A DNA stretch of 22,216 bases, taken from the IMG/VR virus record IMGVR_UViG_3300025118_000176, positions 1 through 22,216 of that record. One strand, 5' to 3'. The position numbers were made by a program, and so were the translations under genes. Below, one piece after another: positions 1-21,949 of this stretch (the stretch's first letter is position 1; each line of letters begins with the position of its first letter). Origin of the DNA: a virus. Under the pieces are notes generated by a model, which searched no databases, was not told where the DNA came from, and worked only from the letters and a program-made list of their open reading frames with translations.

Positions 1-948
1 ATATAGGTCTGTAAATAACTTCGGATTATAAGATAATTTTTTTGATTTTACAAACTCACTTAAATATTTTTTTTCATTTTCATCCATCATTGGGTTACTT
101 AAATCCATTATTTTATAATTTTTCTCTAATTGGTCTACTTCTTGGATAACCCTTGCATAAATGATATGATCTTTAAATTTTTTCTCACAAATATCTAAAA
201 TATCATTCCATGAAACCTCCCATTTAGTTAATTCAGGAAATAATTTAAATAATTTTTTCTCACCCAACCCTTTTACTCCCCTTATTTTATCCGAATTATC
301 CCCCATAAGTGTTTTATAAATAATATAATTTTGAGTGGGCATATTATATTTTTCCTTAAAGAATTTATCAGTATAAAACTTTTTTTCTATTGGTCTATAA
401 ACGACAACTTTGTCGCTTACCAATTGGAGAAAATCCTTATCGCTAGATATTATGAATGCTCGGTCACCTGGTTGTTTTAGCGCTATATGACTTAAATATG
501 CGATGATATCATCCGCTTCTACCTTATCTATTGATACGGTTTTAACTGGTAGGGTTTTTAGGTATTGTATTAACCTTATTATTTGGTCTACTTTAGAATC
601 ATGTTCTTCTTCTAAATTTTCAAATACTTCCCAATTAGTAATTCGTTGAGTTTCTCTACCCGATTTATATTCAGGAACTATATTTTTTCTATTCATTGAA
701 GACCCTGCTCCATCAAATATTACATAAACTTCATGAGGTTGAATTTGCCTAATTAAGGCACCTAAAGATCTTAAAAAACCACCTAACCCCCCAATATGAA
801 CTCCTTTTGGGTTAACCATTTTTAACATAGCAAAGTTTCTAAAGAACAAATTTAAACCATCTATTAAAAGAATTCTATTACTTTGGGACATACCCTTATC
901 ATTCCCTTGATCATCATTCAAGAGGGCAAGTAATTCTTTTTTTCTCAT
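1..948 (-). CDS. rnh: 5'-3' exonuclease of the FEN / T4 RNase H family (3' end beyond window)
   Basis: The reading frame is open from the ATG at 948 to the window edge (316 codons, no stop), so the C-terminus is missing. FEN-family motifs appear in order: LLIDGLN with an acidic residue near D30; VIFDG near residues 76-80, followed by a basic arch-like stretch (R87, K88, K95, R98); VEADD at residues 143-147; SSDKDF at 168-173; and LMGDNSDKIRGVKGLGEKK at about 214-232, which joins the last metal-binding aspartates to the helix-hairpin-helix DNA-binding loop. In T4 this enzyme removes RNA primers and flaps during lagging-strand synthesis. It starts 3 nt after the recombinase stop, so the two are probably co-transcribed and coupled. 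Family assignment is firm; RNase H-like role rather than another FEN-type nuclease is inferred from the SSB/recombinase context. Confidence 0.9.
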   Translation of the reverse strand, partial: MRKKELLALLNDDQGNDKGMSQSNRILLIDGLNLFFRNFAMLKMVNPKGVHIGGLGGFLRSLGALIRQIQPHEVYVIFDGAGSSMNRKNIVPEYKSGRETQRITNWEVFENLEEEHDSKVDQIIRLIQYLKTLPVKTVSIDKVEADDIIAYLSHIALKQPGDRAFIISSDKDFLQLVSDKVVVYRPIEKKFYTDKFFKEKYNMPTQNYIIYKTLMGDNSDKIRGVKGLGEKKLFKLFPELTKWEVSWNDILDICEKKFKDHIIYARVIQEVDQLEKNYKIMDLSNPMMDENEKKYLSEFVKSKKLSYNPKLFTDLY

Positions 949-951
949 AAT

Positions 952-2025
952 TTATTCTGGTTCTTCAGTATAAGAAGAAATATCGTTATATTCAAATTCT
1001 TCTTCTACAACTTTAAAATCGATTCCGCCTAAAATTTCCTTCCAAGCTTTGGCGTTTTGGGTTTTATAATCTTTTAATTCTTTATCATCATCATTTATGA
1101 AACCATGAGGAGTCATAATAATTCTTCCTCTAGATTGTATACCATTAATATGGTTTTTATCAATTTGAAGATTAACACGTTTAGCAAATTCAACTTGTTT
1201 ACCATCTTTAATTGCTTTAATTTTAGATGTTCCTGCATTTGAAATATTACCAAATGTAACTACAAATGTAGAATCAAACCACATTGCAAACCCCCCTTTA
1301 TTCATTAATTTTGGTTTACCCATAGGTGATTCTGCTTTTGCAGTCCATACCTTATTAATACAAACTAATGTGTTTGTATATTTAGATGATTCTTTTCTTG
1401 ATAATGTAATACGTTGATTAACATTATTTCCAAATTGAGTTGACATAGCCCCTGCATTCCATTCATTGTTGTTTTTATTTGATTTTATAGACATTTCGCA
1501 AGGTACTGAACCTATACTGTCCCATAAAAACAATAAATCATAAGGTAAATTACCTTTTTTCTGTTCATCAATTAAATCCAAAATAAAGACAGCTACATCC
1601 TCTATAGTACTAATAGTTTCTCTATCAACATAAATAAATTGACCTTCATAGTTAACAATTTCTCCAGTTTCTTTATCTATAGTCTCTTTAAATTTTAAAT
1701 CCATTTGTTTAGCATATTTCCAATTCCATTTCATTTCAGTAATAATGAAAACAGGTAAAATATTTCTTTTTTGAGCTGAAACTGCTGCTTCTAATAAAGC
1801 GGTTGTTTTACCTGTATCGGAATGGCCTCTAAGTAAACTAATATGGCCCATAGGAATACCTGGAACTGAAGTTACATCTTGGAAGGCTTTAGAAAGTGGG
1901 ATCCATTCTTGTTCTTTAAATTTAACATTTTGTTTTAAACCTTTTTTATCTTTAAAAGCATTTAAATCAAATTTAGATTTAATTTCTTTGGAGACTGCCT
2001 CCTGTAGCGATTTTTTTCTTGCCAT
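952..2025 (-). CDS. uvsX: UvsX-like RecA-family recombinase
   Basis: A 357-aa RecA/UvsX ATPase core. Walker A is GHSDTGKTT at residues 67-75; the catalytic glutamate is probably E97 in FIITEMKW; Walker B is DLLFLWDS at about 153-160. The segment MNKGGFAMWF (241-250) and the preceding INKVW fit the L2-adjacent region of phage UvsX. The C-terminus is acidic (EEEF...EEPE), as in many RecA-type proteins. Length is close to T4 UvsX (about 390 aa). UvsX forms filaments on single-stranded DNA and catalyses strand exchange for recombination-dependent replication and repair. It lies 13 nt downstream of the SSB gene and 3 nt upstream of the exonuclease. The upstream sequence is A/T-rich with no Shine-Dalgarno motif. 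Confidence 0.92.
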   Translation of the reverse strand: MARKKSLQEAVSKEIKSKFDLNAFKDKKGLKQNVKFKEQEWIPLSKAFQDVTSVPGIPMGHISLLRGHSDTGKTTALLEAAVSAQKRNILPVFIITEMKWNWKYAKQMDLKFKETIDKETGEIVNYEGQFIYVDRETISTIEDVAVFILDLIDEQKKGNLPYDLLFLWDSIGSVPCEMSIKSNKNNNEWNAGAMSTQFGNNVNQRITLSRKESSKYTNTLVCINKVWTAKAESPMGKPKLMNKGGFAMWFDSTFVVTFGNISNAGTSKIKAIKDGKQVEFAKRVNLQIDKNHINGIQSRGRIIMTPHGFINDDDKELKDYKTQNAKAWKEILGGIDFKVVEEEFEYNDISSYTEEPE

Positions 2026-2038
2026 GTAACTTTAAAAT

Positions 2039-2893
2039 TTAAAATGGTAAACCATCATCATCCCCCTCAAACATTTCATCAAACTCAGTAGCTTTAGAAG
2101 TTGCTTTTTTACCTTGAGTATCAAGATTAAAATTGGTTTTAGATGAATTATTCTTTACTTCTTTAGTATCCCCATCAAATTCACTTGCAGGTTCGGATTG
2201 GATTGAATCTTCATTATCTTCCTCTCCATCAATAAACTTTTGAAGTTCTTCTTTTAACTTATCATAAGTATACTTAAATCTCTCCTTTAATAATGAAGGC
2301 TGATTAGCTAACCAATTTTCAACTTCCTTAGCATCTTTACTTAAAGGTGTTGTTTTTGGTTTTGGTCTTAAACTTAGGTTAAAACCTAGTCTATCTTGTA
2401 CTTTAGTAGCGTTAACTACAAAGTCATGTCCTTCAGCTACATCAGTGAAGTCACCATAATCCTCATCATCAGCAATTGATAATAATTCTAGATAAATAGT
2501 TTTGCTAAATTCAAATAGTCTAACTCCTTTATCTTCTTCACCCCTAACAATAACAGGAGCAAATACTCTCAATTTTGGGGATAACTTTTTAGCTAACCTC
2601 CAATTTTCAGGATCACTTGTTTTCCTTAACTTAGCAGTGAAATCAACTACAGGATCATCTTCTCCCCAATTAGTTAAAGCCATAATTGGAAATTTTCCTA
2701 CCCCATAATGCATCATAACCTCGTGAAAAGGATTTGTTGGATAATCATAGGCCGAAGGAACAAATCTAATTTGATATTTTCCTTCTTGTCTTGGTTTCCA
2801 ATAAATTAAGGTGTAATCCTTTTTTTCTTTGTTTTGCGGACTAGACTGTTTATTTAAGGTGTCTAATCTCGACTTAATAGCGTTTAAATCCAT
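2039..2893 (-). CDS. gp32-like single-stranded DNA-binding protein
   Basis: A 284-aa protein starting MDLNAIKSRLDTLNKQ, which resembles the basic N-terminal cooperativity arm of gp32. A mixed basic/aromatic core follows (residues about 27-180, including YWKPRQEGKYQIRFVP), then a long acidic tail. The last residues are GDDDGLPF, the acidic-plus-PF tip seen in bacterial SSBs, where it binds partner proteins. There is no cysteine in the whole protein, so the zinc site of T4 gp32 (one His, three Cys) cannot be present. Role: coating single-stranded DNA during replication and recombination with UvsX and the polymerase. Its own TTTG-N20-TATATTTA promoter lies upstream. Assignment rests on the arm, the tail and the position next to UvsX; the core match is by eye. 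Confidence 0.82.
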   Translation of the reverse strand: MDLNAIKSRLDTLNKQSSPQNKEKKDYTLIYWKPRQEGKYQIRFVPSAYDYPTNPFHEVMMHYGVGKFPIMALTNWGEDDPVVDFTAKLRKTSDPENWRLAKKLSPKLRVFAPVIVRGEEDKGVRLFEFSKTIYLELLSIADDEDYGDFTDVAEGHDFVVNATKVQDRLGFNLSLRPKPKTTPLSKDAKEVENWLANQPSLLKERFKYTYDKLKEELQKFIDGEEDNEDSIQSEPASEFDGDTKEVKNNSSKTNFNLDTQGKKATSKATEFDEMFEGDDDGLPF

Positions 2894-2949: not shown

Positions 2950-3420
2950 CTAAAGTTCAATTATTTTATGAATTTTTGTATTGAGCTGTTTTAACTCGTT
3001 ATGTTGGGTTAATAAAACACAGTTTTTATAATGTTGCCAATCTATGGGGAATTTTGTATCTACAACTCCACCATTAAGACTTTTTATAAGTTCATTTAAA
3101 GCGTTTATTGTGTATAAAGTATTTGTTTCTTTTTTTCTATGAACTAAAATAGTATTATCAGGAATCTCTTGTACGTTACCTTGATCGACATTATAAGTGA
3201 TAACGTATTCATCATTGCTCTTAATATAAAGAACAAACATCTTATTATACATTATAGAATATTGGGATGATAAATCTTTTACTAACCCATCAACCCCTTC
3301 TAATGATGTGAAGGTACAAAATAATTTGTTATTCAAGTCTCCTATATTTAATGAGTTTTCAAAATCGTATTTCTCCTGATAAATACTGTCTATGTTATTC
3401 AAAATCGTAGTTTGTTCCAT
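2950..3420 (-). CDS. Unknown 156-aa protein between polymerase and SSB
   Basis: I do not recognise this protein. It is mixed alpha/beta, has two cysteines and shows no signal peptide or membrane segment. The C-terminal third (TLYTINALNELIKSLNGG at about 102-119, then the PIDWQHYKN region) is the most structured-looking part. Its ATG at 3420 lies inside the end of the polymerase gene: the two overlap by 26 nt in different frames, so translation is probably coupled. With PolA-like, SSB, UvsX and exonuclease genes on either side, a replication accessory role is plausible, but this is inference from position only. Confidence 0.75.
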   Translation of the reverse strand: MEQTTILNNIDSIYQEKYDFENSLNIGDLNNKLFCTFTSLEGVDGLVKDLSSQYSIMYNKMFVLYIKSNDEYVITYNVDQGNVQEIPDNTILVHRKKETNTLYTINALNELIKSLNGGVVDTKFPIDWQHYKNCVLLTQHNELKQLNTKIHKIIEL

Positions 3421-4663
3421 GTTTAAGTTTTACTTTTAATCCATATCTTTTAAATATGTTTTTTATATCTTCTATTAAATATTCTTCATCATCTGCTAAA
3501 TCAAATAAAAACGCATCATACGTGTATAATACTAATTTAGATTTTTTAGCTATTATTCTTTTTATTATATGTTTTAATATACGAACATTAAGTGACGTCT
3601 CCAAATTTTGTAGCAGATAATTAAATAATTTTTGTGGATTCATGTTATCCAATTTATCTTTTTCAAATCTATGTTTAGAAATCATACACTCAATATAACC
3701 TTCAGTATTAAATTTTTTCCATAATTCATCTACATATTTTTGTATTTTTTGGAAAAATTCTAAATCCTTGTACTGTTTAAACACTCCCCCATAAAGTTGT
3801 TTGAATGTTAACTCTTTAGCTTTTTTATAATCCACCTTATACATTTTTGCAAAGGAAGCATGAATATCATCCGTATCGAATTTATAATCCACAAGATGGG
3901 CAGCAAGAGTAGGATGATAAGCAGAAATATCAATTTCAACAAACCTATCATTTTCTGGTATAAAAGCTTTACGACACCCATTTTCTTTATTTAAGGCTGC
4001 AAAATTGATTCCTCCAAATCTGTTAGAGGGTCTTGTGGTGGTTGTATTGAAATTGTATTGTGTGTACACTCTATCTGTGCTATCACAGTCGAAGTAGTCT
4101 TCGAAGAGTTGGGGATCCACTCGTATACCACTTTTTTCGATAAATTGGAATACCATTGGTATTGATTGGTTGTAAAATTTGTTGACGGGTTCATCTTTAT
4201 ATTGTTTTAAATTATTATAATTTTTTTCACAAGCTTCATAATGTTTAACGAGAGGGATAATTCTATTAATATCTAGTTTACCCTTATATCTTTTATAACT
4301 ATTGAATAATTTATGTGTTTGGGTTGTTTCTTTTTCATAATTAGGGGAGGCTAGAGATAAATCAATTACCTCATTAGTCCACCAGTAAAAATGCCTAAAT
4401 TCTTTTCTACCCCAAACGTATAACTTATCGAATTTATTAATTGATTCTTCAATGTACTCGTTGTTTAACGGCATAGCTTCGCTATGGTCTATAGTTAAAA
4501 TGTATCCTTTAGTTGATTCAAAGGGTCTAATATAAACTAAACTAACATCTGTAATTGTAGGGTGGGTTTTATAAGAGTATGGGATAACTTCTATGTAAGC
4601 TTCTTTATAACCCTTTTTATTAAACTCGTTTAATTGTCTTTTAGTTTCTACTATATAGAACAT
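3395..4663 (-). CDS. Compact family-A DNA polymerase-like protein
   Basis: This 422-aa protein aligns by eye with Pol I/Taq. YTQYNFNTTTTRPSNR (200-215) corresponds to the region ending in TGRLSS; RKAFIPEN (231-238) to the RRAFIP-type segment; EIDISAYHPTLAAHL (243-257) is motif A with catalytic D245; DIH is at 266-268; KAKELTFKQLYGG (281-293) is motif B (K283, F287, Y291, G292); NYLLQN (348-353) matches the region before the O-helix partner motif; YTYDAFLFD (380-388) is motif C with D383, but the usual HDE reads YDA. Only about 20 residues separate GIRVD (179-183) from YTQYN, where a thumb of around 100 residues normally sits. The N-terminal 150 residues resemble a 3'-5' exonuclease fold, yet the first strand reads YIEVIP rather than DxE, so proofreading is probably lost. 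Role: a replicative, repair or priming-associated polymerase; which one cannot be told. Confidence 0.8.
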   Translation of the reverse strand: MFYIVETKRQLNEFNKKGYKEAYIEVIPYSYKTHPTITDVSLVYIRPFESTKGYILTIDHSEAMPLNNEYIEESINKFDKLYVWGRKEFRHFYWWTNEVIDLSLASPNYEKETTQTHKLFNSYKRYKGKLDINRIIPLVKHYEACEKNYNNLKQYKDEPVNKFYNQSIPMVFQFIEKSGIRVDPQLFEDYFDCDSTDRVYTQYNFNTTTTRPSNRFGGINFAALNKENGCRKAFIPENDRFVEIDISAYHPTLAAHLVDYKFDTDDIHASFAKMYKVDYKKAKELTFKQLYGGVFKQYKDLEFFQKIQKYVDELWKKFNTEGYIECMISKHRFEKDKLDNMNPQKLFNYLLQNLETSLNVRILKHIIKRIIAKKSKLVLYTYDAFLFDLADDEEYLIEDIKNIFKRYGLKVKLKHGTNYDFE

Positions 4664-4699: not shown

Positions 4700-5485
4700 T
4701 TAATAATTATTATTTGATTTTTTATTAGGGTAATAATTCCACCAAATAGTTTGGGGGGTGCTTATTTTATTGGGGTTTTGGTTAGGATCCCAATTTTGGT
4801 TAAGTCTTGTCAAAGGTTTTTGATTATTAGCAGCATTTTTATTACCACCTATCCCTTGAGAAGCACACCATAAATTAAATCCTTTCCAATTATGGTTTTT
4901 TTCAATGCTTTCTATTTGTTTAGTATTAGTTTCAGCAGGATTACTTCCAGGAGCACCACTTCCAGGACCACCCGTTTGAAATGAAAAAAAAGATACTTCA
5001 TATAATTCATGAGCTACTGTAGAATCCTTATTTTTAAACAATGAATAAGTGTCTTTAGATATTTCATTAAAAATATTATCATTTGCTTTTTTTGCAAAAT
5101 ATCTATTATAACTTCCTCTTTTTATATCTTTATCTGTGGGGAGGGATTGGATATTATTTGGAATGGATCTAGAGGTAAAATTATCATAAATTTTATGATA
5201 TTTATCAACTTCATAATTACTTCCCATATGTGGATCATCAGCAGTTTGATCTAGAGTTGTTATAATTTCTTTTAATGAAGGGGGAATTGGGGGTTGGTTT
5301 ATTTCTAGATCTAAAGGTAAAAGTTGACGATTATTTATATTAGGTTTTTTACCTACGAAACATTTATTTTTCGAAGTTTTATAATAAGGACCTATATAAG
5401 GTTTTTTATTTTTATCTCCCTTAACATAAAATTCATCACCATTAGTAAATAAATCTGTTTTTATTTGGGATTTTGGATAATACAT
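4700..5485 (-). CDS. Unknown 261-aa protein, probable tail or baseplate accessory
   Basis: I do not recognise the whole protein. Its N-terminus has a pattern I associate, from memory, with baseplate or tail proteins of environmental phages: a TNGDEFYV segment (14-21), then YIGPYYKT (30-37) and a CFVGKKP turn (42-48). A Gly/Pro-rich linker (about 171-180, GGPGSGAPGS) separates the N-terminal part from an Asn/Trp-rich C-terminus ending KKSNNNY. The gene is the last of the tail block, 24 nt downstream of the hub/hydrolase gene with no terminator between, so it is presumably co-expressed with the hub. There is no Shine-Dalgarno; the leader is almost entirely A/T. No catalytic motif is visible. 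Confidence 0.72.
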   Translation of the reverse strand: MYYPKSQIKTDLFTNGDEFYVKGDKNKKPYIGPYYKTSKNKCFVGKKPNINNRQLLPLDLEINQPPIPPSLKEIITTLDQTADDPHMGSNYEVDKYHKIYDNFTSRSIPNNIQSLPTDKDIKRGSYNRYFAKKANDNIFNEISKDTYSLFKNKDSTVAHELYEVSFFSFQTGGPGSGAPGSNPAETNTKQIESIEKNHNWKGFNLWCASQGIGGNKNAANNQKPLTRLNQNWDPNQNPNKISTPQTIWWNYYPNKKSNNNY

Positions 5486-5509: not shown

Positions 5510-8500
5510 TTAAACAACGGGGGCTGGGGGTACAACCCATCTTGGATCATCATTTAAAAATACTTTACAGAATCCCTTAACCTTCTTTTTAACAGTATTA
5601 TTGGAGACAGTGATTCTTTTAACTCTTGAACTATCAGTAGTATAATTTGCATTATCATTATGTCCTATATTTCCTTCTATTGTTACTATAGAGGCATCTT
5701 TAACATTAATACCAATATAAATTCCTATATGTCCCCCATTGGGATAACCATCCCCCCAATTATAATGGGGTTTATTATAAATAATAAGATCCCCAGGAAG
5801 AATTTCAGCATCAGCAATTTTCTGCCACATAGTATTACTATTACCTGAAATTTCTACCCATTGGTTGACGTTTTTAAAGGATTGCATTGTATAACCTGGG
5901 TTGGGGGTATTTAACCCATACTTAACATCATAAGCATATATCTCTTTAGATTCTGCATAGGTTCCTCCTCTTATTTTTAAAGGTTGAAAGGGGTACATTC
6001 TCTTATTAGAAATATCTATATAATTATTTGTATTAACTTCAAATTTATCCTTAACATATCTGTTCCCAGTAGTATATGCCTCCCCCCAAACTGTATTACA
6101 AAATTGATTACACCAATGAGATCCACCATTTGGGTTACCTTTTGATGTTTGAACACCATTTTCAGATTTAGGTGCTGAGTATCCTTGAGGCCAAGCTCCT
6201 CCTCTAGCTGTTAATGTTTTATTCCATCTTGAGTCTAACATTTTCCATGCTGGGTATCCACCCTTTCCTATTGTTTCTACACTTTGACGACTATTTGAGG
6301 TTTGGACTCTACCATCTGATTCTTGTCCTACATAACTTGCTGCAATCAATATAATTCTTGATCTTAATAAATAGTAGGTTTTTACTAAATTGGCTGTCAT
6401 ACCAACGTGGGTTTTCTGTTTCCAGGCATATAATATATCAAGACCGGGTTTTATTGCAGCTTTTAATTCATCACCATCTTTATATGCATTTTTGTTTTTG
6501 ATATCTGTATCTTGAGTACCTAAGGTTCCAACTTCTAGTACATCAGCAGATGTTGATGTTTCAGCTGTATCAATTGCTGTATAACCACTTCCAAATGCTC
6601 CTAGTAATTTTTTAGTATTAATAGTTTGTGTTATTTTTGCATTAAATTGGCCTTGAGAAGTTGCTAAAGTTTTTAACTCTGTTATCCATTGATTTTTGGA
6701 AATTTTATGGTTTACTCCAGTTATAAGAAAAGATAAGGTATCACCATAATTTACGGGTAAAAAAGAGGTATTAACTTCAACTTTATTATAAATTTTTATA
6801 CCTGATAAACCATCCATTGTTAATTTAAGATTAAAAGGTAAAAATCCTACACCAGTACTAGTTGTTCCTTTATTATCATTTTTAGCATACCACGCTATAG
6901 CATATCTATAGAAATTGGTTATAGATGATAAATTTAACTCAATATAAGGATCATATAATTGGTTTGTTCCATCAACCCCTAATTTTTCTGATCCACCAGA
7001 TGCAAAATTAGTATAAGCAGATTTTACATTTTCGTTTTGATCTTCAAGAGATTCATCAGCCTCAGCAACAGCATCAACTATATTATTTTTAAATCTATCA
7101 AAAATTCCAAAATTCCATTTAGAAAAAGCAGTTGCCTCAAATCCTGGAATTGATCCATTAGCTGTTGCCCCTATAGCTATCATAGAAGAAAAGTTTTTGT
7201 TTATTTCAGTTGTAATACCTGCTTTATGAATGAAATTAGATCTAGAATCTTTCCCCTCTTCACCATTATATCCATAAATTTCAAGTACTGTTTCCTCTAC
7301 TTTAAAACGGGGGATATCTAAATATTTGCAAATTTTACGGATACCGGGAATTGGGGTTTGGTCTATTAATCGGATTGCATTGTCTTGATCTATTACAGGT
7401 TCTAAAGTATTAATTCCTCCTAGACTTCTATTAATATCATTACATATAGTTTTTAATACATCAAAAATCATTATATTATTATGATTATCCGTATCACCAA
7501 GTAATTTTTCTAAGTAATCACAATTCATCATTATAGCCATTACCCTTCCATAATAATAATTATTCATAATTGGTTCACCAAAATCATCTTTTCTACCTGA
7601 ATCTTCTTTATAGTAATTGATGAATTTAGGAAAATATTCATATAAATCATCTTGTCCTTGACCATTATAAAAAGAATCATTTCTTACTAAACATACCCTA
7701 GGATCTGCGGAAATAGAATTGTCAATAGCAAAGCATATATTATCATTGGAGTTTGTATGAATGGAAAGCATAGGGACTTTTTTACTTCCTTTAGTCATTT
7801 TAGGAATAACATGGGTTTCAAGGAATTCTAAAAAACACCCAAGCCTAACATACAGTTTTTTAGCTGTATTACCATTATACGCTATTTCAAAAAAATCAAA
7901 TCCTTCAGATTTTCCTTTCTCATCCCCCCCCTGAGTATATTTTTCAACATCCTTATGTGTGGTCTTTAAATAAGTACTATTCCAATCACTTATTTCATAT
8001 TTAGGAAATATAACACCATCATTCCATACATTAAAGTTCTCAGAAGCCAATCTTGGGGAAATTCTTTTAACTCCATTTTTCCATACCATGTCACTAGAAC
8101 GAAGAGTAGAAGTCCATCCGGCTAATTTAACATTTCTAACTTCATAAAACCATTTTTGAATTCTATTTGCATCTTTTGTTTCAGCAGAGGATTGTTTATA
8201 CTTCTCTGCGTCTGTTATAAACCCATCTGGATCCTCTGCCATTTCTGGTTCTTTATATGAAGAAAATCTTGGGTCCATCTCCCCTCCTGCTCTATTTACT
8301 CTGACACAGGCATTATAAAAATTTGTATAAAATTCATCGACATCTTTTCCTAATAGAAGATGAAAATTTTTATATGATGTAGGCATAATTGTATTTAAAT
8401 AAAGATAACATCTTAAATATGAAGCATCATCATTAAAATTAGTATAAAAGTGAACATGTCCACTATCGGGTTTATATTGTTTACCTATTTTTTTTTGATA

Positions 8501-10333
8501 ATCATAATCACCAAAAAATTGGTTTGAATCACCCACATATTTCATTCCAATTAAATTAGGGTTAGAAGTTGAGGATGATAATTTTAAAGCTTTAAATTTC
8601 TCAGTGTAAGTAACACCTTCATTTCCAACTTCTTCACTTCCTATATGATATAGATTTCCGGGAATCCACTTACTATCAGATTCTTTAACCTTTTGTACCC
8701 CAGTCTCTTCCATATCCCACCTATATGTTTTAAGATGAAACTGTAAATATTGGAGCATACCTGTATTCTTTAATTTATCTTCACGTGTTTCAGATGTCCA
8801 ATATGTATGTACATTTTTCTCCTTTTGATCATCATAATGTTCCGCATCATCTCCATCATAACCTTTTTCATTATCAGTAAAGGTTTGGTTATTAAAATTA
8901 CCAAGCCATGTAAACCATTTTGTAATAATTTTATTATCTGGATTATCTTGATAACCGCTTAATACAGCATCAATAGGTTTGAATCTTTTTCCATTTCCTA
9001 TACCTCCTTTATCTTTTTGACCCCTATTACCAAAATTTGTAGCTAATCTCATATTGTATATAGTGTCCATTGCTACTGCAAAAATTTCTTCTTGGTATAT
9101 TGCTTCTGTTGAAAATTCATTTAAACCTCCGGGTATATTACCATAATTAACTCCTTCTACTTTCTCTCCTACATTATGAGGGGGTGGTAGAGTACCCGTT
9201 CCTGTATCTTGTCCTATTTTATCAAAATCTATAGCATCCCCAACCCCTTTAAATCCTTTTGTTTTCATACTCCTAATACATTCATCATTATACCAAGTAT
9301 CATGTTGTCTATCATGAACAGTCCAGTCAATATTTTCCTGATAGTATTTAACATAATACCAAACCTGAGATGTATTCTGTATTATATATTTTTGAGCACC
9401 TTCAACTCTTATTTTATTATACCATTTTTTTAAAGCATCTTTAAAATGTGGATACATTTCACCATAAAATTTTGCTTCTGTTGCTGCTTGACCACTAAAT
9501 TCATTTATATGTAGTGTTGTTTTGGCTGCATGATAAGTATTGCCAATTTTCCCTATTGGGGGTAAATTTGCTTTTAAAGATTCAATAACATCCCCTAAGC
9601 TCATAATTTCCATTTTAATTTTATATGAACCATCATCTTCAAAAGTCCAGGAAAAATTTGTTATAGTTCCATAAACCCCATCATAATTTCCTTGATACTT
9701 TTTTCTATTTTTTTCAATTTCTGGTAAAACATCCTCATAAGTATGATTATTATATCTCCAAAATTTATCATCAATTAAAGTTTCACCAACATATTCAAGA
9801 CCACCACTTTTATTTAAATATTTATCATTACCCCATTCTACTAATACTGTAAATCCTAATCTTAAATAAAGAACATCAATTATATCAAATTGTTCCCTAT
9901 TATGGCAAATAAGGTTTAATTTGGTTTTTTTAACAGAACCTTTATTAATACATTCATGGGTAAGATCTATAATACCCGGCATTGGGACTGGGCCAAAATC
10001 TAACCCCCCTATTCCATAAGCAGGATTACGACTTTCACCTAAAACACCATATTTATTTCCTTTTCTTAAATCTGAAGTTCCATTAAATAAAATATATTCT
10101 TTAGCTAATTTCCCCCCATCATTAGTACCACCTGTTGTTTTATTAGTTACACTTTTATATTTTGTTGAACTTAAGATAACAGAAGAAGCCATTTTTATCC
10201 AAGCATTCCTTGAATTTAAATATGATATTTGATCTGCAGATCTTTCTGATAAAACCCCATGTGTTTTTTGACGAATATTTATTTCATCATTTACATATTT
10301 TTGAAAATTTTCTCCTATTAGATTTCCGGGCAT
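5510..10333 (-). CDS. Giant baseplate hub protein with C-terminal CHAP-like peptidoglycan hydrolase
   Basis: 1607 aa. Residues 1 to about 1240 have the character of a myovirus hub/structural protein; GLSGIKIYNKVEVN (about 1175-1188) and the ITGVNHKISKNQWITEL stretch match the late segment of hub proteins I know. The C-terminal ~300 residues carry a cysteine-histidine peptidase arrangement: GSHWCNQFCNTVW with likely nucleophile C1408 (C1412 nearby), then LPGDLIIYN, GGHIGIYIG with H1535, and TIEGN at 1551-1555. That order (Cys, His, then EGN) fits CHAP/NlpC-P60 amidase-endopeptidases. Likely role: central baseplate spike/hub that locally opens peptidoglycan during injection, analogous in function to T4 gp27-gp5 although gp5 uses a lysozyme. 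It is 6 nt downstream of the gp53-like gene. The exact hub fold is inferred; the hydrolase domain is well supported. Confidence 0.8.
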   Translation of the reverse strand: MPGNLIGENFQKYVNDEINIRQKTHGVLSERSADQISYLNSRNAWIKMASSVILSSTKYKSVTNKTTGGTNDGGKLAKEYILFNGTSDLRKGNKYGVLGESRNPAYGIGGLDFGPVPMPGIIDLTHECINKGSVKKTKLNLICHNREQFDIIDVLYLRLGFTVLVEWGNDKYLNKSGGLEYVGETLIDDKFWRYNNHTYEDVLPEIEKNRKKYQGNYDGVYGTITNFSWTFEDDGSYKIKMEIMSLGDVIESLKANLPPIGKIGNTYHAAKTTLHINEFSGQAATEAKFYGEMYPHFKDALKKWYNKIRVEGAQKYIIQNTSQVWYYVKYYQENIDWTVHDRQHDTWYNDECIRSMKTKGFKGVGDAIDFDKIGQDTGTGTLPPPHNVGEKVEGVNYGNIPGGLNEFSTEAIYQEEIFAVAMDTIYNMRLATNFGNRGQKDKGGIGNGKRFKPIDAVLSGYQDNPDNKIITKWFTWLGNFNNQTFTDNEKGYDGDDAEHYDDQKEKNVHTYWTSETREDKLKNTGMLQYLQFHLKTYRWDMEETGVQKVKESDSKWIPGNLYHIGSEEVGNEGVTYTEKFKALKLSSSTSNPNLIGMKYVGDSNQFFGDYDYQKKIGKQYKPDSGHVHFYTNFNDDASYLRCYLYLNTIMPTSYKNFHLLLGKDVDEFYTNFYNACVRVNRAGGEMDPRFSSYKEPEMAEDPDGFITDAEKYKQSSAETKDANRIQKWFYEVRNVKLAGWTSTLRSSDMVWKNGVKRISPRLASENFNVWNDGVIFPKYEISDWNSTYLKTTHKDVEKYTQGGDEKGKSEGFDFFEIAYNGNTAKKLYVRLGCFLEFLETHVIPKMTKGSKKVPMLSIHTNSNDNICFAIDNSISADPRVCLVRNDSFYNGQGQDDLYEYFPKFINYYKEDSGRKDDFGEPIMNNYYYGRVMAIMMNCDYLEKLLGDTDNHNNIMIFDVLKTICNDINRSLGGINTLEPVIDQDNAIRLIDQTPIPGIRKICKYLDIPRFKVEETVLEIYGYNGEEGKDSRSNFIHKAGITTEINKNFSSMIAIGATANGSIPGFEATAFSKWNFGIFDRFKNNIVDAVAEADESLEDQNENVKSAYTNFASGGSEKLGVDGTNQLYDPYIELNLSSITNFYRYAIAWYAKNDNKGTTSTGVGFLPFNLKLTMDGLSGIKIYNKVEVNTSFLPVNYGDTLSFLITGVNHKISKNQWITELKTLATSQGQFNAKITQTINTKKLLGAFGSGYTAIDTAETSTSADVLEVGTLGTQDTDIKNKNAYKDGDELKAAIKPGLDILYAWKQKTHVGMTANLVKTYYLLRSRIILIAASYVGQESDGRVQTSNSRQSVETIGKGGYPAWKMLDSRWNKTLTARGGAWPQGYSAPKSENGVQTSKGNPNGGSHWCNQFCNTVWGEAYTTGNRYVKDKFEVNTNNYIDISNKRMYPFQPLKIRGGTYAESKEIYAYDVKYGLNTPNPGYTMQSFKNVNQWVEISGNSNTMWQKIADAEILPGDLIIYNKPHYNWGDGYPNGGHIGIYIGINVKDASIVTIEGNIGHNDNANYTTDSSRVKRITVSNNTVKKKVKGFCKVFLNDDPRWVVPPAPVV

Positions 10334-12547: not shown

Positions 12548-15064
12548 TTATTGTATTTCACGTTCAGAAGTATTTATACCTTGTCCTACAGCATTACCAT
12601 TCATTTCTATTACTGTAGATTTTTTAGATATATCCTTTAATAAAGATACCATTTCACCATTATCTGATCCACCACCACCACCACCACCACCTAGGTCAGT
12701 CCCAACTACCATTGAGTCATTTTTATCTAATTGGATAGCTCCTTTTTCTCCAAACAATATTGGGTTACCACCAGGACCTATTATACCATCCTTCATAAAT
12801 GTTAAACCAAAAGCAACTGCGGCACCCGCGGCAGCTAGCCCTAAAGCCCAACCAATAAAAGGTATTGAAGATAAACTCTTCATTGCCCCCATAGCTGCCT
12901 GACCTATAGCTATCCATAAATCTTTTTTCATTAAAAAACTACCTGCTTTTATAAGAGCATTTCCAATGGCCTTTGTAGCATTCCAAGCTAATTGTAATGC
13001 CTTTTTTGCAATAAACCATGTTTTTTCAAATAATATTCTTCCTTTTTTCTTTATCCATTCCTTTGCATTATGCATTTTTTCCCATAGAAGTTTCTTTTTC
13101 TCATCAGACATATGTAATTTTTCTCGGGCCATTTGGGCTTTTTTCTTAGCCCAATGTCCTATTGATGCTATATACCCCCTTTGTCTAACTACATTTCCTT
13201 CTTCATCTAATATATTGGATCTCCATTTTTCAGCATTGATAAGCCCCATTTGCTCTAAAAATAGAAAACCTTTTTCAACCATTGACACCAAACCCCCAAC
13301 TAAAACAACACCTACAACATATTTAAGTTTATCAGCATGTGCATTAATAAATTCAAATAACCTTCCAATATTAACTAGAGAAGTTGCCATCTCCCCCATT
13401 TTATTTTTCATTTCAACCATAACAGCATTTGCATCTTCTTGGGCTGAATTTGCTTCATATGCAGCAAGGATTGAAGCTCCTCCATGTTTTAGAATTTTCT
13501 TTTTTATTTCCTCTATTTTCTGTTCTCTTTTTTCTTTGTCTTCAATTAGATTAGCTTCTGCTAAAGCTTGTTCCATAGTTTTACCACCTAAATCCTGTAA
13601 CATTTCCTTCTCTTTAACAGAAGCAATAAGTTCGTTTCTTGTCATCCCAATAGCTTTAGCTAAAGCCTCTGTTTGGACAACAGTCATTTCAGAAAGATCT
13701 GCAGAACTCCCCATTTGTTTCATTACTAAACCTGCAGCCTCCGCTGATTTACCCATCATTGCTAATTTTCTAGCTTCCTCTAGATTTAACTCTTTTCCTG
13801 TTAACATTTCAGCTTCCATTTCAGCCGCAATAGAAGATTCAAAATCAAGCATTGAAGCTGCAATTGATTCAGCTTGTGCCATGTTAATACCTAGGGATTT
13901 GGTTTTTACTACCATTTCGGCTAATAATTTATTGTCAAAACCATAAGCTGCTTTTAATCCTGCACTAGTTTCTGCAACCTCATTCATAATATTAGCCAAT
14001 TTGAAGGTAATACCAGTCATTGATTTTTGTTTGGCTATAGCATTAGCAATTTCTAAATTAATAACTTTTGAATCTTTACCAGTGGTCGCCATATATTTTG
14101 AGAACTTACCAGCATTTTTTTCACTCATTCCTAATCTTTTAGTCATGAATACAAAATTCTTAGTCATGTCTTCATTATATACATTTGCTACCCCTAATTC
14201 TTTTTGTAACCCCAGAACACCCTCTTGCATGTTTTCTACATGGTATAAAGAATTTCCTGTTTCTTCATAAACCTTATGCATCTCATCTTTTAATCCTTCT
14301 GCTTCACCTTTACTTATTTGAAGGCCCCTCATCATAGAATGTGTTTTATTATCTGCATCAAATAATAATCCTATCAGAGCAGGAAGACCAAAGGAGCCTA
14401 CTAAATCAAATGCCCCTGAAAGCATAGTTTCACCAAACCCTGCTCCTTCTACTCTTAATTCTCTCATTTTTTTAGCAGCATTTGCTATAGGTTTCCCTAT
14501 TAAAGGACCCAAAGCAGGAATTGAACTAAAAGTCTCTGCCATTTTATCAAAAACAGCAGTATTTGCATTTAGATCCTCATTGGCATTTTTTATTTCGTTA
14601 AATGTATTTAATAATTCTGAAGCAGTATCTTTAGAATTTCTTAATTCCATATTTTGCATAAGAAGAAGATTATATAATTCTATATTTCCTGCTTTCTTAG
14701 CTCTACTTAATTTTATTTCATTAATTGACATTTGGGAAGTAAGCTTTGCAACTTTACTAGTAAGTGCTTGTCCCTCATTAAGATATTTTTTTAATTTAGT
14801 TTTATTTTTTAGTTCTTCAGCTGTAAACCCTGCCATTTTTTTAGCAGAAGTATTTAACTCTTTTACAATAGTTTGTTGGTTTTTGAAGGAAGAGGTGAGA
14901 TCTTGAGCGGCTTGTGATCCTTCTTGTAATTCCTTTATAACTTCACCCATATCACTACTAATGCTAGTGAAAGTTTCTTGGGATACAGTACCCAATTCTC
15001 TCATGTCTTTTACATAACTATTGAGAGCATCTTTTCCTTTTTTTATTTCATCGGATAAACCCAT
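12548..15064 (-). CDS. Tail tape measure protein
   Basis: 838 aa. The N-terminal 200 residues are Lys/Glu/Leu-rich and probably coiled coil. Predicted hydrophobic or amphipathic helices lie at about 200-235, 575-600 and 700-755 (VVGVVLVGGLVSMV; GWALGLAAAGAAVAFGLTF), the usual membrane-active segments. The C-terminus has the tape-measure ending FMKDGIIGPGGNPILFGEKGAI, followed by an eight-glycine linker and a short helix. It is the longest helical ORF and lies between tail-chaperone-like and baseplate genes, the standard position. The protein sets tail length and is ejected ahead of DNA. A TATTTATAA motif is 22 nt upstream of the ATG. Confidence 0.88.
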   Translation of the reverse strand: MGLSDEIKKGKDALNSYVKDMRELGTVSQETFTSISSDMGEVIKELQEGSQAAQDLTSSFKNQQTIVKELNTSAKKMAGFTAEELKNKTKLKKYLNEGQALTSKVAKLTSQMSINEIKLSRAKKAGNIELYNLLLMQNMELRNSKDTASELLNTFNEIKNANEDLNANTAVFDKMAETFSSIPALGPLIGKPIANAAKKMRELRVEGAGFGETMLSGAFDLVGSFGLPALIGLLFDADNKTHSMMRGLQISKGEAEGLKDEMHKVYEETGNSLYHVENMQEGVLGLQKELGVANVYNEDMTKNFVFMTKRLGMSEKNAGKFSKYMATTGKDSKVINLEIANAIAKQKSMTGITFKLANIMNEVAETSAGLKAAYGFDNKLLAEMVVKTKSLGINMAQAESIAASMLDFESSIAAEMEAEMLTGKELNLEEARKLAMMGKSAEAAGLVMKQMGSSADLSEMTVVQTEALAKAIGMTRNELIASVKEKEMLQDLGGKTMEQALAEANLIEDKEKREQKIEEIKKKILKHGGASILAAYEANSAQEDANAVMVEMKNKMGEMATSLVNIGRLFEFINAHADKLKYVVGVVLVGGLVSMVEKGFLFLEQMGLINAEKWRSNILDEEGNVVRQRGYIASIGHWAKKKAQMAREKLHMSDEKKKLLWEKMHNAKEWIKKKGRILFEKTWFIAKKALQLAWNATKAIGNALIKAGSFLMKKDLWIAIGQAAMGAMKSLSSIPFIGWALGLAAAGAAVAFGLTFMKDGIIGPGGNPILFGEKGAIQLDKNDSMVVGTDLGGGGGGGGSDNGEMVSLLKDISKKSTVIEMNGNAVGQGINTSEREIQ
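12671..12691. repeat. (ACC)7 triplet repeat coding for the tape-measure glycine linker
   Basis: Seven perfect ACC units on the plus strand read as seven GGT glycine codons on the minus strand, joined to an eighth Gly codon (GGA). Perfect triplet tracts are prone to slippage, and any change keeps frame, so the linker could vary in length. Confidence 0.9.
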
Positions 15065-15095: not shown

Positions 15096-15449
15096 CTACT
15101 TATATGAAGATTTCGTAGGTTTTGGAAACAATGAAGGATCAATTTTTCCATCTGGACCTATTGCTGTTTTATGGTTTGTGGAATTGGATTTGATTTTTTC
15201 GGTTTCTTCATTTTGTTTTTGATGATAATTTGAAATTTCTGAAAAAGTAAAATTTCTTAACCAAACAGGCATATTATAAACAGTATGCCAATCATATCCT
15301 CCATTACCATGAAAAACTATTTCATGGATATAAGTAAATAAATTTTTTCTACTAATAAGAGCTTGTTTAGATGTCAGGCCAAAAAAAGTTGAGGTTAATT
15401 GGGATTGGTTTAGAATCTTCACTGTCGGGGGGGAAAAAAGACAAATCAA
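15096..15449 (-). CDS. Second tail-chaperone-like ORF, probably reached by +1/-2 frameshift
   Basis: This ORF is in the +1 frame relative to the upstream gene and overlaps it by 83 nt. The frame opens after a TAG just upstream and has no ATG there; the only start-like codon is TTG at 15449. Downstream content looks like real protein: KQALISRKNLFTYIHEIVF, then GYDWHTVYNMPVWLRNFTF, then a polar Lys/Glu tail ending KPTKSSYK. The MPVWLRNF segment resembles, from memory, the C-terminal part of tail-assembly/gp26-type proteins in related phages. The likeliest expression is as a C-terminal extension of the upstream protein through slippage in the overlap, giving a fusion of about 333 aa if the shift is in the C7 run at 15427-15433. 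An assembly error in the homopolymer is the main alternative. Confidence 0.65.
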   Translation of the reverse strand: MICLFSPPTVKILNQSQLTSTFFGLTSKQALISRKNLFTYIHEIVFHGNGGYDWHTVYNMPVWLRNFTFSEISNYHQKQNEETEKIKSNSTNHKTAIGPDGKIDPSLFPKPTKSSYK

Positions 15450-16098
15450 TGTCTGGTTGGAATTCGTCTATATGTTTTCTTAATGCCCGAGCATCCCGGG
15501 CTAACATATACTTATCTACAAACTCTCTAATAGTTTTTTTCTCTGTATCGTTATCTACTGAAGTTATTGTATATTTTAATCTTGTAGAAAGTTCTGGGGA
15601 GTTTGTTTTAGAAACTTTTTTAAGTCCCTCTAATTCCCTTTTTATTGAATTTTCATCTTTATGGGTTAATAATTTAAATGTAATATCTACTTTAGTAGAA
15701 GGAAGAGTAAAATCAAAGGAATTATGTCCTTTTGTAAATTTAGATTCATCCAAAGGTTTGGGTTCTATTAAAGATAAATCAATATCTACTTCTTCTCCCT
15801 CATATGAAAAAGTATAATCCTTACCATAACCCAAAACTCTAGCCGCCACCATTAAAGCATTTTTATCTCCAATAATTAAATCATCATATTTAATATCCTT
15901 AGAAACAATTAAAGATTGTAACATTTTATCAATTACTGTTCCTTTTTTTATATAGGTTTGGTTTGTTAAAATATCCTCTTCTTTAGCTGTTAGATATTTT
16001 ATTTCCATTTTTCCACTTGATAAAGGATTATCTTCAGGATAAATTAAACCTTTCGATGGTAATTCTATGTCTTCTGTTGGGATTTTATATTCACTCAT
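15367..16098 (-). CDS. gp26-like / tail assembly chaperone-like protein
   Basis: 243 aa. The opening IELPSKGLIYPEDNPLSSG, then KMEIKYLTAKEEDILTNQTYIKKGTVID and a GDKNALMVAARVLGYGKDY segment (about 78-96), matches my recollection of the T4 baseplate gp26-type family (T4_baseplate, Pfam PF12322) in T4-related phages. The C-terminus ends in an aromatic FFWPDI. It sits between the tail tube and the tape measure, where tailed phages usually encode their pair of tail assembly chaperones. Near its end is an unusual TTTTTTCCCCCCC run (15439-15427), and a second ORF overlaps in the +1 frame. A strong terminator and a TATTTATAA motif lie upstream. Gp26-like versus chaperone is unresolved; the two ideas are compatible in position and overlap style. 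Confidence 0.68.
   Translation of the reverse strand: MSEYKIPTEDIELPSKGLIYPEDNPLSSGKMEIKYLTAKEEDILTNQTYIKKGTVIDKMLQSLIVSKDIKYDDLIIGDKNALMVAARVLGYGKDYTFSYEGEEVDIDLSLIEPKPLDESKFTKGHNSFDFTLPSTKVDITFKLLTHKDENSIKRELEGLKKVSKTNSPELSTRLKYTITSVDNDTEKKTIREFVDKYMLARDARALRKHIDEFQPDIDLSFFPPDSEDSKPIPINLNFFWPDI
15427..15439 (-). other. T6C7 slip-prone run, candidate frameshift site
   Basis: In the frame of the upstream gene the codons are TCT TTT TTC CCC CCC GAC. A P-site proline tRNA on CCC can re-pair fully after either +1 or -2 movement inside the C7 run, and both place the ribosome in the frame of the 15096-15449 ORF. A second run, T7 at 15387-15381 (AAC TTT TTT TGG), is a backup candidate just before the zero-frame stop at 15369-15367. 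Confidence 0.5.
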
Positions 16099-19147: not shown

Positions 19148-19816
19148 TTAAGTAAATCTATGTTTAAGTGCATTATAGTTTTGTTGGATTTCTTGAGAAG
19201 TAAGAGCTTTATTATAAGCTTGAAAAGATGTTATATAGCCCTCCATATCGTAAAAAGAAAAAGAAGATTCATATTGTCCTATATAAAAAGGTTCATTCCA
19301 ATTAATTTGGTCTAAGGGGGGTTTGGAATTGTTAAGTTCTCCATTTATGTAAAAATAATGGGTTGTATAATCAAAAACATAAGTAACATGACTCCATTCA
19401 TTCATTGGTGTAGATCCAATAGAAGAGGTGAAAAATTTGTAGTTTCCATGGTTCCAACTTACATATTCATTACTAGAATATACAAGCATTCTTTTAGTAG
19501 AACTCCATCCCGTTACTGTTCCAATACCAGAAGTTAAGGTTGGCTTAAACCACCATGATATTGAAAAGGGGGATGATCCACCAACAAGACCTAAACTAGA
19601 AGAAACTAATATAGCATCATCAATACCATCAAACTCCCAAGATCCTTTTTCTCCTAAACTTCCTGAAATATCATTTATTAAACTTCCCGTTATATCTCCA
19701 ACTAAACTATATGTAACTTCAGGGACACTACCACTAATGTAACTTCTTGGGTTAATAGCATCTAAATAAAATACTAACCCCTCTTCTACTATATTTGGTC
19801 CTCCTTCTACTGACAT
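19148..19816 (-). CDS. LamG/ConA-like lectin-fold protein (array member 5)
   Basis: 222 aa, a single LamG-type jelly roll. The shared N-terminal signature is NIVEEGLVFYLDAINPRSYISGS (about 8-30); SWEFDGIDDAI (about 59-69) is the family core turn; ISWWFKPT and WSHVTYVFDYTTHYFYINGEL are typical LamG strands; the ending LTSQEIQQNYNALKHRF is common to the whole array. There is no fibre-trimerisation or cleavage motif. Start ATG overlaps the previous stop as TAATG. Likely a carbohydrate-binding surface or fibre-tip protein; the ligand is unknown. Last of the five, followed by a TATTTATAA motif. Confidence 0.85.
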   Translation of the reverse strand: MSVEGGPNIVEEGLVFYLDAINPRSYISGSVPEVTYSLVGDITGSLINDISGSLGEKGSWEFDGIDDAILVSSSLGLVGGSSPFSISWWFKPTLTSGIGTVTGWSSTKRMLVYSSNEYVSWNHGNYKFFTSSIGSTPMNEWSHVTYVFDYTTHYFYINGELNNSKPPLDQINWNEPFYIGQYESSFSFYDMEGYITSFQAYNKALTSQEIQQNYNALKHRFT

Positions 19817-20556
19817 TATTGAAATCTCCCTTTTAATGCGTTATAGTTTTGTTGAATTTCATCTGCAGATAAAGCACGATTATATATTTGGGCTAGATAA
19901 AAATTACCATACATATCTAAGGACCAATCAGATCGAGTACCTATTAATAATTTTTTTTCAATTATAATAGAATTAAATCCTGTTATATCATTATCATCAG
20001 GGCCACCTTCACCGTCACCCCAACCATCATTACTTCCATCTAAATATCCCAATATTACATTATTAGTTCTGTCTATAACTAAAGTTACCATATAAATTTG
20101 ATCTTCATTTATTGGTATATTTTGACCTGCTCTTTGACTTACTGTATCATTTCCATTACATCTAACATATACCTTTTCACTTGCAGGGGAATACCATATA
20201 CTCCAACCTATATTTCCAGATCCTCTACATCCTTTACCTATAATCATACCAGTATTACTAGTATTACTATCAATTTCAAAAAAACAATTAACAGTAAAGC
20301 TATCTAATTGAGGGTCAAAGGAAGATGTAAATGCCCCAGTAGAAGCTTGGTAAAAATTTAAATAATCATTAATACCATCTAACTCCCAACAACCAGAAGA
20401 AGAATTTGAAAATTCTCCTCCATTTAAACTTCCAGAATATTCCCCCTCTAAACCATAGATTGTAGTACTACCCGAGATATATGATCTAGGGTTAGCAGCG
20501 TCAATATTGAAAATTAACCCATCTGTTACTATTTTAGGTGAATAACTTACTCCCAT
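19816..20556 (-). CDS. LamG/ConA-like lectin-fold protein (array member 4)
   Basis: 246 aa, LamG fold. Signature start YSPKIVTDGLIFNIDAANP plus RSYISGS, core CWELDGINDYLNF, FTVNCFFEID strand, VTLVIDRTNNVILGYLDG, and the ending ALSADEIQQNYNALKGRF. It contains an Asp/Gly-rich loop (GDGEGGPDDND, about 178-188) absent from its neighbours, which could bind calcium, as LamG domains often do, or be a divergent ligand loop. It is joined to the genes on both sides by one-base TAATG overlaps. Confidence 0.85.
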   Translation of the reverse strand: MGVSYSPKIVTDGLIFNIDAANPRSYISGSTTIYGLEGEYSGSLNGGEFSNSSSGCWELDGINDYLNFYQASTGAFTSSFDPQLDSFTVNCFFEIDSNTSNTGMIIGKGCRGSGNIGWSIWYSPASEKVYVRCNGNDTVSQRAGQNIPINEDQIYMVTLVIDRTNNVILGYLDGSNDGWGDGEGGPDDNDITGFNSIIIEKKLLIGTRSDWSLDMYGNFYLAQIYNRALSADEIQQNYNALKGRFQ

Positions 20557-21260
20557 TATTTAAATCTGTTTTTAAGTGCATTATAATTTTGTTGGATTTC
20601 TTGAGTGGATAATGATTTATTATAAAGTTGTATGCTTGATATTTTGCCCGTATGATGGTATTCAGAATTATTACTTCTACCTAAATAAATATGATTTATA
20701 TCAAATTGGGCTAAATGACCTATAGAACCTGTATATGTAGTTCTAGAGGTTCCATCTAAATACATATCATATTGAGAACCATTCCAATTAATTGTCAAAT
20801 TATGAAAATTAGAATCTCCTGTATCTTTTATATAAGTAAAATTATCTAAACCTTGTGAATCTTGGTATAAAAGAATTGTTTCATCATCTGCCGCCCCTGT
20901 AAAATCTCCAAAAGCAATTCCTGTTAAATTACCTGACCCCCCCCACCCTAATAGGTATCTATCCCCTGAAGTGTAACTAGTATTTATTCCAGAAGTTCTA
21001 GTGAACCATATACTTAAATGATATACAGGTTGAGTTGGTATTATAGTATCTATAGAATCATCAACCCCATCAAATATCCAAGAACTAGGATTTTCAGCTA
21101 TACTACCAGAAACATCATTATATAAACTTCCAGTAATAGAACCAACTAAACTATTAGTAATAGCAGGAATACTACCACTAATATAACTTCTTGAGTTAGC
21201 AATATCAAAATAAACAATTAATCCGTCTTGTACTATTTTAGGTGAATGAGTAAATGCCAT
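20556..21260 (-). CDS. LamG/ConA-like lectin-fold protein (array member 3)
   Basis: 234 aa from the ATG at 21260. The frame stays open upstream to 21362, but that extension reads through the end of the previous gene and has no LamG character, while 21260 gives MAFTHSPKIVQDGLIVYFD, matching its paralogues, and the TAATG overlap used across the array. Core SSWIFDGVDDSIDT, strands LSIWFTRTSG and LTINWNGSQYDMYLDGTS, ending LSTQEIQQNYNALKNRF. Probable ligand-binding jelly roll on the virion. Confidence 0.84.
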   Translation of the reverse strand: MAFTHSPKIVQDGLIVYFDIANSRSYISGSIPAITNSLVGSITGSLYNDVSGSIAENPSSWIFDGVDDSIDTIIPTQPVYHLSIWFTRTSGINTSYTSGDRYLLGWGGSGNLTGIAFGDFTGAADDETILLYQDSQGLDNFTYIKDTGDSNFHNLTINWNGSQYDMYLDGTSRTTYTGSIGHLAQFDINHIYLGRSNNSEYHHTGKISSIQLYNKSLSTQEIQQNYNALKNRFK

Positions 21261-21949
21261 TATATAAACCTCCCTTTTAAAGCGTTGTAGTTGTGTAGGA
21301 TTTCTGTTGCAGAGATGGCGCGGTTGTAGATTTGAGCATTTGCTATCTTTCCGGAATACCATTCTATATTATTTTGCATTCCAATTACTAATGGGTTATT
21401 ATTACCATTAATGGTATAGGGTCCAAAAGAACTATCTGTTTTTATTGCTACTCCATTCTTATATAAGATAAGAGTTGTTAATGAATTATCCCAAGTCATT
21501 CCAATACTTTGCCAGTCACCTGTAGTTAATACATTTGATGTTGATTGTACTGTTCTCCAATTAGAATCACCAACACCTCCTGATAAATAGCCTGATGGGT
21601 TAAGCCCCATGTGGTATGCCCCCCAAGTCCATTGTTTATTTTTATACATGATAGCATCCCACCCACTAACAGAAGATGGGTTTATCCAACAATTAAGTGT
21701 TAATGTTGATGTTAAATCTAAAGCTGTATTATCCATACAACTTATATAATCATCTATGCCATCAAAAACCCAAGTACCACCATTCTCAGAACTATACATC
21801 CCTGTATCTTGTAAACTTCCATTATTGGATAAGTCTAAGGTATTATAAGAAGTTGTAGCATTAGGGACATAACTTGCCCTATTAGCCGCATCCATATTAA
21901 AGATTAACCCATCTGCTATAATACCTGTTGTTATTGACCCGAATTTCAT
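21260..21949 (-). CDS. LamG/ConA-like lectin-fold protein (array member 2)
   Basis: 229 aa. Signature start GIIADGLIFNMDAANRASY, core TWVFDGIDDYISCMD, LTLNCWINPSS strand, IGMTWDNSLTTLILYKNGV, ending ISATEILHNYNALKGRF. The start codon overlaps the previous stop as ATGA. The codons for KGRF near the end (AAA GGG AGG TTT) place GGGAGG 8 nt before the next ATG, an ideal Shine-Dalgarno position, although the other genes of the window do not use such sites. Confidence 0.85.
   Translation of the reverse strand: MKFGSITTGIIADGLIFNMDAANRASYVPNATTSYNTLDLSNNGSLQDTGMYSSENGGTWVFDGIDDYISCMDNTALDLTSTLTLNCWINPSSVSGWDAIMYKNKQWTWGAYHMGLNPSGYLSGGVGDSNWRTVQSTSNVLTTGDWQSIGMTWDNSLTTLILYKNGVAIKTDSSFGPYTINGNNNPLVIGMQNNIEWYSGKIANAQIYNRAISATEILHNYNALKGRFI
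21266..21297. repeat. 32-bp direct repeat, copy 1 (LamG gene 3' end)
   Basis: Identical to 21955-21986. It covers the codons for the NYNALKGRF ending and the junction with the next start. The exact nucleotide identity exceeds what shared protein sequence requires and suggests recent duplication or conversion. Confidence 0.85.

Follow-up and report, generated by a model that had tools for sequence, protein, structure and literature searches.

A Small divPolA1-Type DNA Polymerase with a Truncated Thumb and Its Conserved Gene Neighborhood in Phages

The window, a stretch of 22,216 nucleotides of viral DNA (IMG/VR record IMGVR_UViG_3300025118_000176), encodes a family-A DNA polymerase of 422 aa that is a member of divPolA1, a group named and described by Yutin et al. 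(2024, Virol J 21:200, PMC11348598), and that carries every feature of the divPolA1 description in that paper that is testable in a 22-kb record. Judged by its gene context, this small polymerase is probably not the replicase but an accessory enzyme without proofreading that carries out short synthesis linked to recombination or to the removal of primers. In the divPolA1 section of Yutin et al. (PMC11348598), the group is known from 14 phages (three immuto isolates among them, with immuto gp001 as a published divPolA1) and is described as having conserved palm residues, a truncated thumb, and replaced catalytic aspartates in the 3′-5′ exonuclease; it accompanies a regular polymerase (PolA, PolB, or PolC) and is followed downstream by conserved replication genes. 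The original prediction had taken this architecture to be undescribed, which was wrong. The source phage of the window is a marine, T4-like phage that probably infects Bacteroidota; the relationship to Flavobacterium phage immuto and matching contigs that occur in Flavobacteriia bins only suggest such a host.

Fold, Family, and Active Site of the Small Polymerase

The gene and the domains of its product are:

complement(3395..4663), minus strand: small polymerase, divPolA1-type family A, 422 aa, open reading frame from ATG to stop
residues ~1–160: degenerate exonuclease domain
residues ~162–209: thumb stub
residues 210–422: palm and fingers

The Pfam profile PF00476 (DNA_pol_A) matched the protein with E = 3.8e-6 and 26.5 bits, which does not reach the gathering cut-off of 34.3 bits that small polymerases of the immuto clade exceed, and phrog_17 (DNA polymerase family) matched with E = 1.9e-12. 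A fold search was needed because PDB sequence searches with the polymerase or its profile as the query returned nothing at E ≤ 0.01. The AlphaFold2 model, built from an alignment of 78 members, reached a mean pLDDT of 94.5 and a pTM of 0.91, and Foldseek identified 249 PDB matches at E ≤ 0.001, the top one being the Klenow fragment (1kfd, E = 1.1e-18, TM = 0.75 by query length), so that the structure prediction proposed earlier as a check for a polymerase palm came out in favor of one. The below-cut-off PF00476 score notwithstanding, the structural match and the motifs put the window protein in the family-A fold. Features of the T4 gp43 type were not found in this polymerase, which has a family-A fold and no Exo I aspartate.

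Complete homologues of 403–452 aa are present in hundreds of contigs, and immuto gp001 is 37.8% identical to the window polymerase over 98% of the protein (E = 4e-77), indicating that the open reading frame is not a product of chance or of a frameshift. A frameshift that masks a thumb-coding stretch, raised at the outset as a possible artifact, was ruled out by the equal length of the homologues. A scan of IMG/VR identified at least 591 relative stretches, and scans with the members of immuto and of Microcystis phage Mel-JY01 as queries identified 312 and 109 stretches that partly overlap; these and the following locus counts include related, overlapping contigs and do not represent independent events. 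A huge-phage member used as the query added no further relatives.

The thumb interval of the window polymerase (E176–T209) consists of 34 residues, and of 22–40 residues across 78 non-redundant members, compared with 126 residues in the E. coli PolA (E541–T666). One short helix (184–190) is all that the AlphaFold2 model shows in this interval, and the earlier estimate of about 20 residues for a near-absent thumb was close to the measured length. The exonuclease domain had been called degenerate, and the catalytic aspartate of Exo I is indeed missing in 78/78 members, where position 23 is F, Y, I, or V. Within the Exo II region there is no acid at position 89, position 86 is a lysine in 76/78 members (an arginine in the window), and K87 is present in 78/78, whereas the Exo III position was assigned by eye. 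Because the Exo I aspartate is missing and a near-invariant lysine pair replaces the Exo II acids, the domain retains the exonuclease fold yet cannot act as a normal metal-dependent nuclease. The invariant lysine or lysines suggest that a surface of the dead domain may have been re-used for binding.

A profile alignment of the window polymerase family with the E. coli PolA and the full PolA of immuto pairs D245 with D705 (motif A), K283 with K758 and Y291 with Y766 (motif B), and D383 with D882 (motif C). The initial reading of a 422-aa family-A polymerase with motif A (D245), D266-I-H268, motif B (K283, F287, Y291-G292), and motif C (D383) in this order was thereby confirmed. Each of D245, D383, K283, Y291, R211, N348, and Q352 is present in 78/78 non-redundant members and F287 in 77/78; because these residues persist despite identities to the window polymerase down to 25%, catalysis appears to be under selection. 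Other active-site positions depart from the E. coli PolA: H250 stands at the place of E710 (78/78), Y279 at that of R754 (74/78), Y382 at that of H881 (76/78), and A384 or S384 at that of E883 (78/78), so that motif C, noted originally as YDA instead of HDE, reads YDA or YDS across the family. E710 of Pol I is the steric gate that excludes ribonucleotides. Since this gate is a histidine in every member, an altered sugar selection is a prediction, not a result, of the comparison.

The Gene Block and the 156-aa Protein

The small polymerase gene is flanked by the following genes:

1..948, minus strand: 5′-3′ exonuclease (Pol I N-domain/T4 RNase H family), 316 aa, cut off at the end of the record (PF02739, 9.2e-34; phrog_107, 1.9e-38)
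952..2025, minus strand: UvsX/RecA-like recombinase, 357 aa (phrog_97, 2.2e-13; PF00154, 1.3e-5)
2039..2893, minus strand: gp32-like single-stranded DNA-binding protein (SSB), 284 aa (PF08804, 6.2e-11; phrog_1192, 1.1e-16)
2950..3420, minus strand: 156-aa protein of unassigned fold, 26 bp overlap with the polymerase gene
4700..5485, minus strand: conserved gene of 261 aa immediately upstream of the polymerase, where the tail gene block ends

The matches to PF08804 and phrog_97 in the adjoining genes bear out the setting with UvsX and a gp32-like SSB. The order 261-aa gene, polymerase, 156-aa gene, SSB, UvsX, and 5′-exonuclease was found across 132 partly overlapping locus entries, with gaps mainly at the locus ends, and is the same in a 190-kb Microcystis phage and a 484-kb uncultured phage. 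From the 156-aa gene to the 5′-exonuclease, the window block has the order of immuto and others. The 261-aa gene, whose product has no Pfam or PHROG match, is located upstream of the polymerase in 110/132 loci of this first locus set.

In a wider set, the 156-aa gene is the next listed gene after the polymerase in 253 out of 269 loci, often with an overlap of 20–26 bp, and the remaining 16 loci contain no block gene downstream of the polymerase. The reverse holds as well: among the best 80 matches to the 156-aa protein, the polymerase is located upstream in all 78 loci with room for it. The 156-aa gene is thus an obligate neighbor of the small polymerase. Its product, which had originally been put forward as a possible processivity factor, has only one domain, of alpha/beta type, in the AlphaFold2 model (pTM 0.71). 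Searches of Pfam, PHROG, and PDB sequences identified no match for the 156-aa protein, two fold searches gave nothing usable (the PDB search with the model returned nothing at E ≤ 0.1), and neither a two-domain clamp fold nor a gp45 profile match was found. The protein is likely a partner of the small polymerase and may in part substitute for the missing DNA grip. A more far-reaching version, which we consider rather unlikely, is that the two proteins are the subunits of one obligate enzyme, with the 156-aa protein acting as a thumb in trans; given the histidine at the steric gate, such an enzyme would have an unusual sugar selectivity and would serve synthesis that is coupled to UvsX or SSB. 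The strict reciprocal pairing of the two genes is compatible with this version.

Elsewhere in the window, the tail genes complement(15367..16098) and complement(15096..15449) overlap, the second being in the +1 frame, and both are located just upstream of a probable tape measure gene (838 aa, 12548–15064, assigned by size and place). The sequence TTTTTTTGGCCTGAC is found just before the stop of the first tail gene (expected number of occurrences in the window, 0.02) and is found again in most of some 36 related loci, nearly all of them with an equal +1 relation, which makes the pair a candidate for tail chaperone genes with a conserved programmed frameshift (+1 or −2). The span 19148–22215 holds similar genes in tandem that share a C-terminal sequence; they probably encode receptor-binding or adhesion proteins that vary by duplication, and a concanavalin/laminin-G-like domain (PF13385) was identified in the two of them that were scanned. 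No Pfam match was obtained for a tail or baseplate-like protein of 1607 aa (5510–10333), the C-terminus of which (around GGSHWCNQFC...GGHIGIYIG) resembles, by eye, a cysteine/histidine cell-wall hydrolase.

Regular Polymerases and Clamps in Related Phages

Each of the relative records of at least 150 kb (11/11) contains exactly one regular polymerase besides the small one. A full PolA (~780 aa) is carried by immuto (W01), G026, G027, G028, and G029, and a PolB, among the records of this length, by G013, G015, G036, G044, W02, and W03; no virus record contained both. Neither polymerase was found in two relative records of 114 and 120 kb, of which at least one is probably a fragment: the 120-kb record (G014) also lacks a detectable GroES gene. 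No family-C regular polymerase was identified in 17 records; Yutin et al. (PMC11348598) report such cases. The 22-kb window record contains no match to PolB and no second polymerase or clamp, and absence from an IMG/VR record, which may be incomplete, is weak evidence. The small polymerase as the sole polymerase was ruled out for the relatives by the presence of the regular one.

The full PolA of immuto contains an exonuclease domain (PF01612, 1e-10) with intact-looking YDTET/HNASFD motifs, and the PolB of G015, which belongs to the wider clade of the window, contains the exonuclease domain PF03104 (2e-17). A protein of 240–277 aa that is related to T4 gp45 is encoded downstream of PolB in G013, G015, G017, G018, and Mel-JY01. 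It was detected solely by a profile comparison of the PolB-adjacent gene (hhalign with the gp45 family, E = 5.7e-9 over 190 columns), with no match above the cut-off to the Pfam T4 clamp family PF02916, and was not found in immuto. By this comparison the PolB-adjacent protein, and not the 156-aa protein, is likely the clamp of the PolB-bearing relatives. That the relatives also carry a full, proofreading PolB (with the gp45-like clamp) or PolA supports the original suggestion of a specialized enzyme. The regular polymerases are surrounded by GroES/GroEL and nucleotide genes, with GroES near the polymerase in both PolB records and in immuto, a proximity that Yutin et al. (PMC11348598) noted as well.

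In a tree of 32 small polymerases, the full-PolA records form one branch (100/100) and the window falls within the PolB-bearing clade (97/96). Because the full-PolA records form a single branch, one switch of the regular polymerase family suffices for the tree rows labeled A or B, and the small polymerase and its block remained unmoved while this switch occurred. A PolB is encoded by G043 (93 kb), the long relative nearest to the window by the 156-aa protein, whose small polymerase has 66% identity. For the phage of the window, a PolB together with a gp45-like clamp is predicted in the part that was not sequenced. Of 14 relative records, 11 contain a DnaG-like primase that is related to immuto gp091; the records without a match (G033, G034, and G035) are 110–124 kb long and probably incomplete.

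The PolB gene is split into two adjacent open reading frames of ~560–610 and 306–318 aa in G013 (L141:5170-7769), G015 (L147:14955-17915), G017, G035, and G044, and is a single open reading frame of ~840–900 aa in other relatives.

Role of the Small Polymerase and Comparison with Known Systems

Without a thumb and proofreading, and with a PolB or full PolA present, the small polymerase is unlikely to copy the genome. Its neighbors bind single strands, pair strands, and remove 5′ ends, which makes the filling of short gaps or the extension of recombination intermediates the most economical role. Genome copying would be the task of the regular polymerase (PolB with the gp45-like clamp in the clade of the window), whereas the small polymerase would carry out short, distributive synthesis on SSB-coated or recombining DNA: it may fill gaps after the neighboring 5′-nuclease has taken off RNA primers or flaps, extend 3′ ends paired by UvsX, or both, so that polymerase and nuclease would act as a bacterial Pol I split over two genes. 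Several points speak against this accessory role: the regular polymerase could equally fill RNA-primer gaps, the changes of E710 to histidine and R754 to tyrosine are unusual in a DNA polymerase, a shared gene neighborhood is no proof of function and is read by Yutin et al. (PMC11348598) as a sign of a part in replication, and the 22-kb window record itself holds no second polymerase or clamp. The two substitutions (78/78 and 74/78) would fit a ribonucleotide-tolerant or primer-making polymerase that may start or extend primers with rNTPs, and family-A enzymes have turned into RNA polymerases before. Such a change is raised for divPolA2 by Yutin et al. (PMC11348598). We nevertheless regard this explanation as quite improbable, as 11/14 relative records have a DnaG-like primase and a bulky histidine may still exclude the 2′-OH.

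An enzyme for translesion synthesis or end joining, analogous to Pol theta or Pol nu and working on damaged templates or where UvsX-dependent recombination takes place, would agree with the lack of proofreading, the altered active site (A/S384 for E883 and Y382 for H881), and the adjoining UvsX and gp32-like SSB. Pol theta and Pol nu are, however, larger than the small polymerase, which could not accommodate their inserts, and lesion bypass has no direct support, making this role unlikely. The small polymerase could alternatively be the main replicase, with a regular PolA or PolB as the auxiliary enzyme and the 156-aa protein and SSB providing processivity. It shares its block with the SSB, the recombinase, the 5′-nuclease, and a DnaB-type helicase, and the regular polymerases have GroES/GroEL and nucleotide genes as neighbors; in the part of Yutin et al. 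(PMC11348598) that deals with divPolA1, the gene context is taken as evidence of an involvement of divPolA1 in replication and the role of the regular polymerases is called “less obvious.” Such a division of labor is distinctly improbable for an enzyme that has neither a proofreading site nor a thumb, with a gp45-like clamp downstream of PolB in five relatives and a regular polymerase in every record of at least 150 kb that has an exonuclease domain wherever it was scanned. Finally, the loss of the grip, the changed residues around the triphosphate, and the invariant lysine within the dead exonuclease domain might point to a catalytically inactive, polymerase-derived scaffold or primer-template binding protein. 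This is very improbable because an inactive scaffold would not need the catalytic residues that are conserved in 78/78 members, namely both metal-binding aspartates and the equivalents of K758, Y766, R668, N845, and Q849.

A large group of marine phages (at least 591 related stretches) keeps a second, thumbless, non-proofreading polymerase together with fixed recombination proteins, even where the main polymerase has been exchanged for one of another family, as has the clamp in the single PolA genome that was examined. On the favored reading, two polymerase jobs in T4-like phages are thereby separated, and immuto offers a cultured model for each.

Palm residues, truncated thumb, inactive exonuclease, and downstream replication genes are shared between the window protein and divPolA1 as described in the corresponding section of Yutin et al. 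(PMC11348598), including immuto gp001. The window member differs from that of immuto in belonging to a separate, PolB-associated clade, and no essential difference in architecture was found between the two. What the present analysis adds is the sampling, the finding that polymerase and 156-aa protein are reciprocally paired, the clamp adjacent to PolB and its absence in immuto, and the histidine at the steric gate; the supplements of that paper may show some of these points. The histidine gate and the obligate 156-aa partner, neither of which is mentioned in its section on divPolA1, pose concrete biochemical questions. The divPolA2 of barbaviruses likewise has a PolA palm without a normal thumb or exonuclease and occurs in phages that carry a PolB (PMC11348598), but, by its description there, is set apart by an unrelated N-terminal globular domain and a variable neighborhood, in contrast to the degenerate exonuclease domain and fixed neighborhood of the window protein. 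Rhodothermus phage RM378, a cultured far-T4 reference that is T4-related and has an unusual polymerase set, was ruled out as a close relative since its polymerase belongs to family B (PF00136, 1.2e-34), with the exonuclease-like part on a separate open reading frame, and a PF00476 search found no divPolA1. With bacterial Pol I (Klenow), the window protein has in common the exonuclease-palm-fingers order and the aligned catalytic residues, but it differs by about 92 fewer residues in the thumb interval, a dead exonuclease, the changes E710 to H, R754 to Y, and E883 to A or S, and a 5′-nuclease that is encoded by a separate gene.
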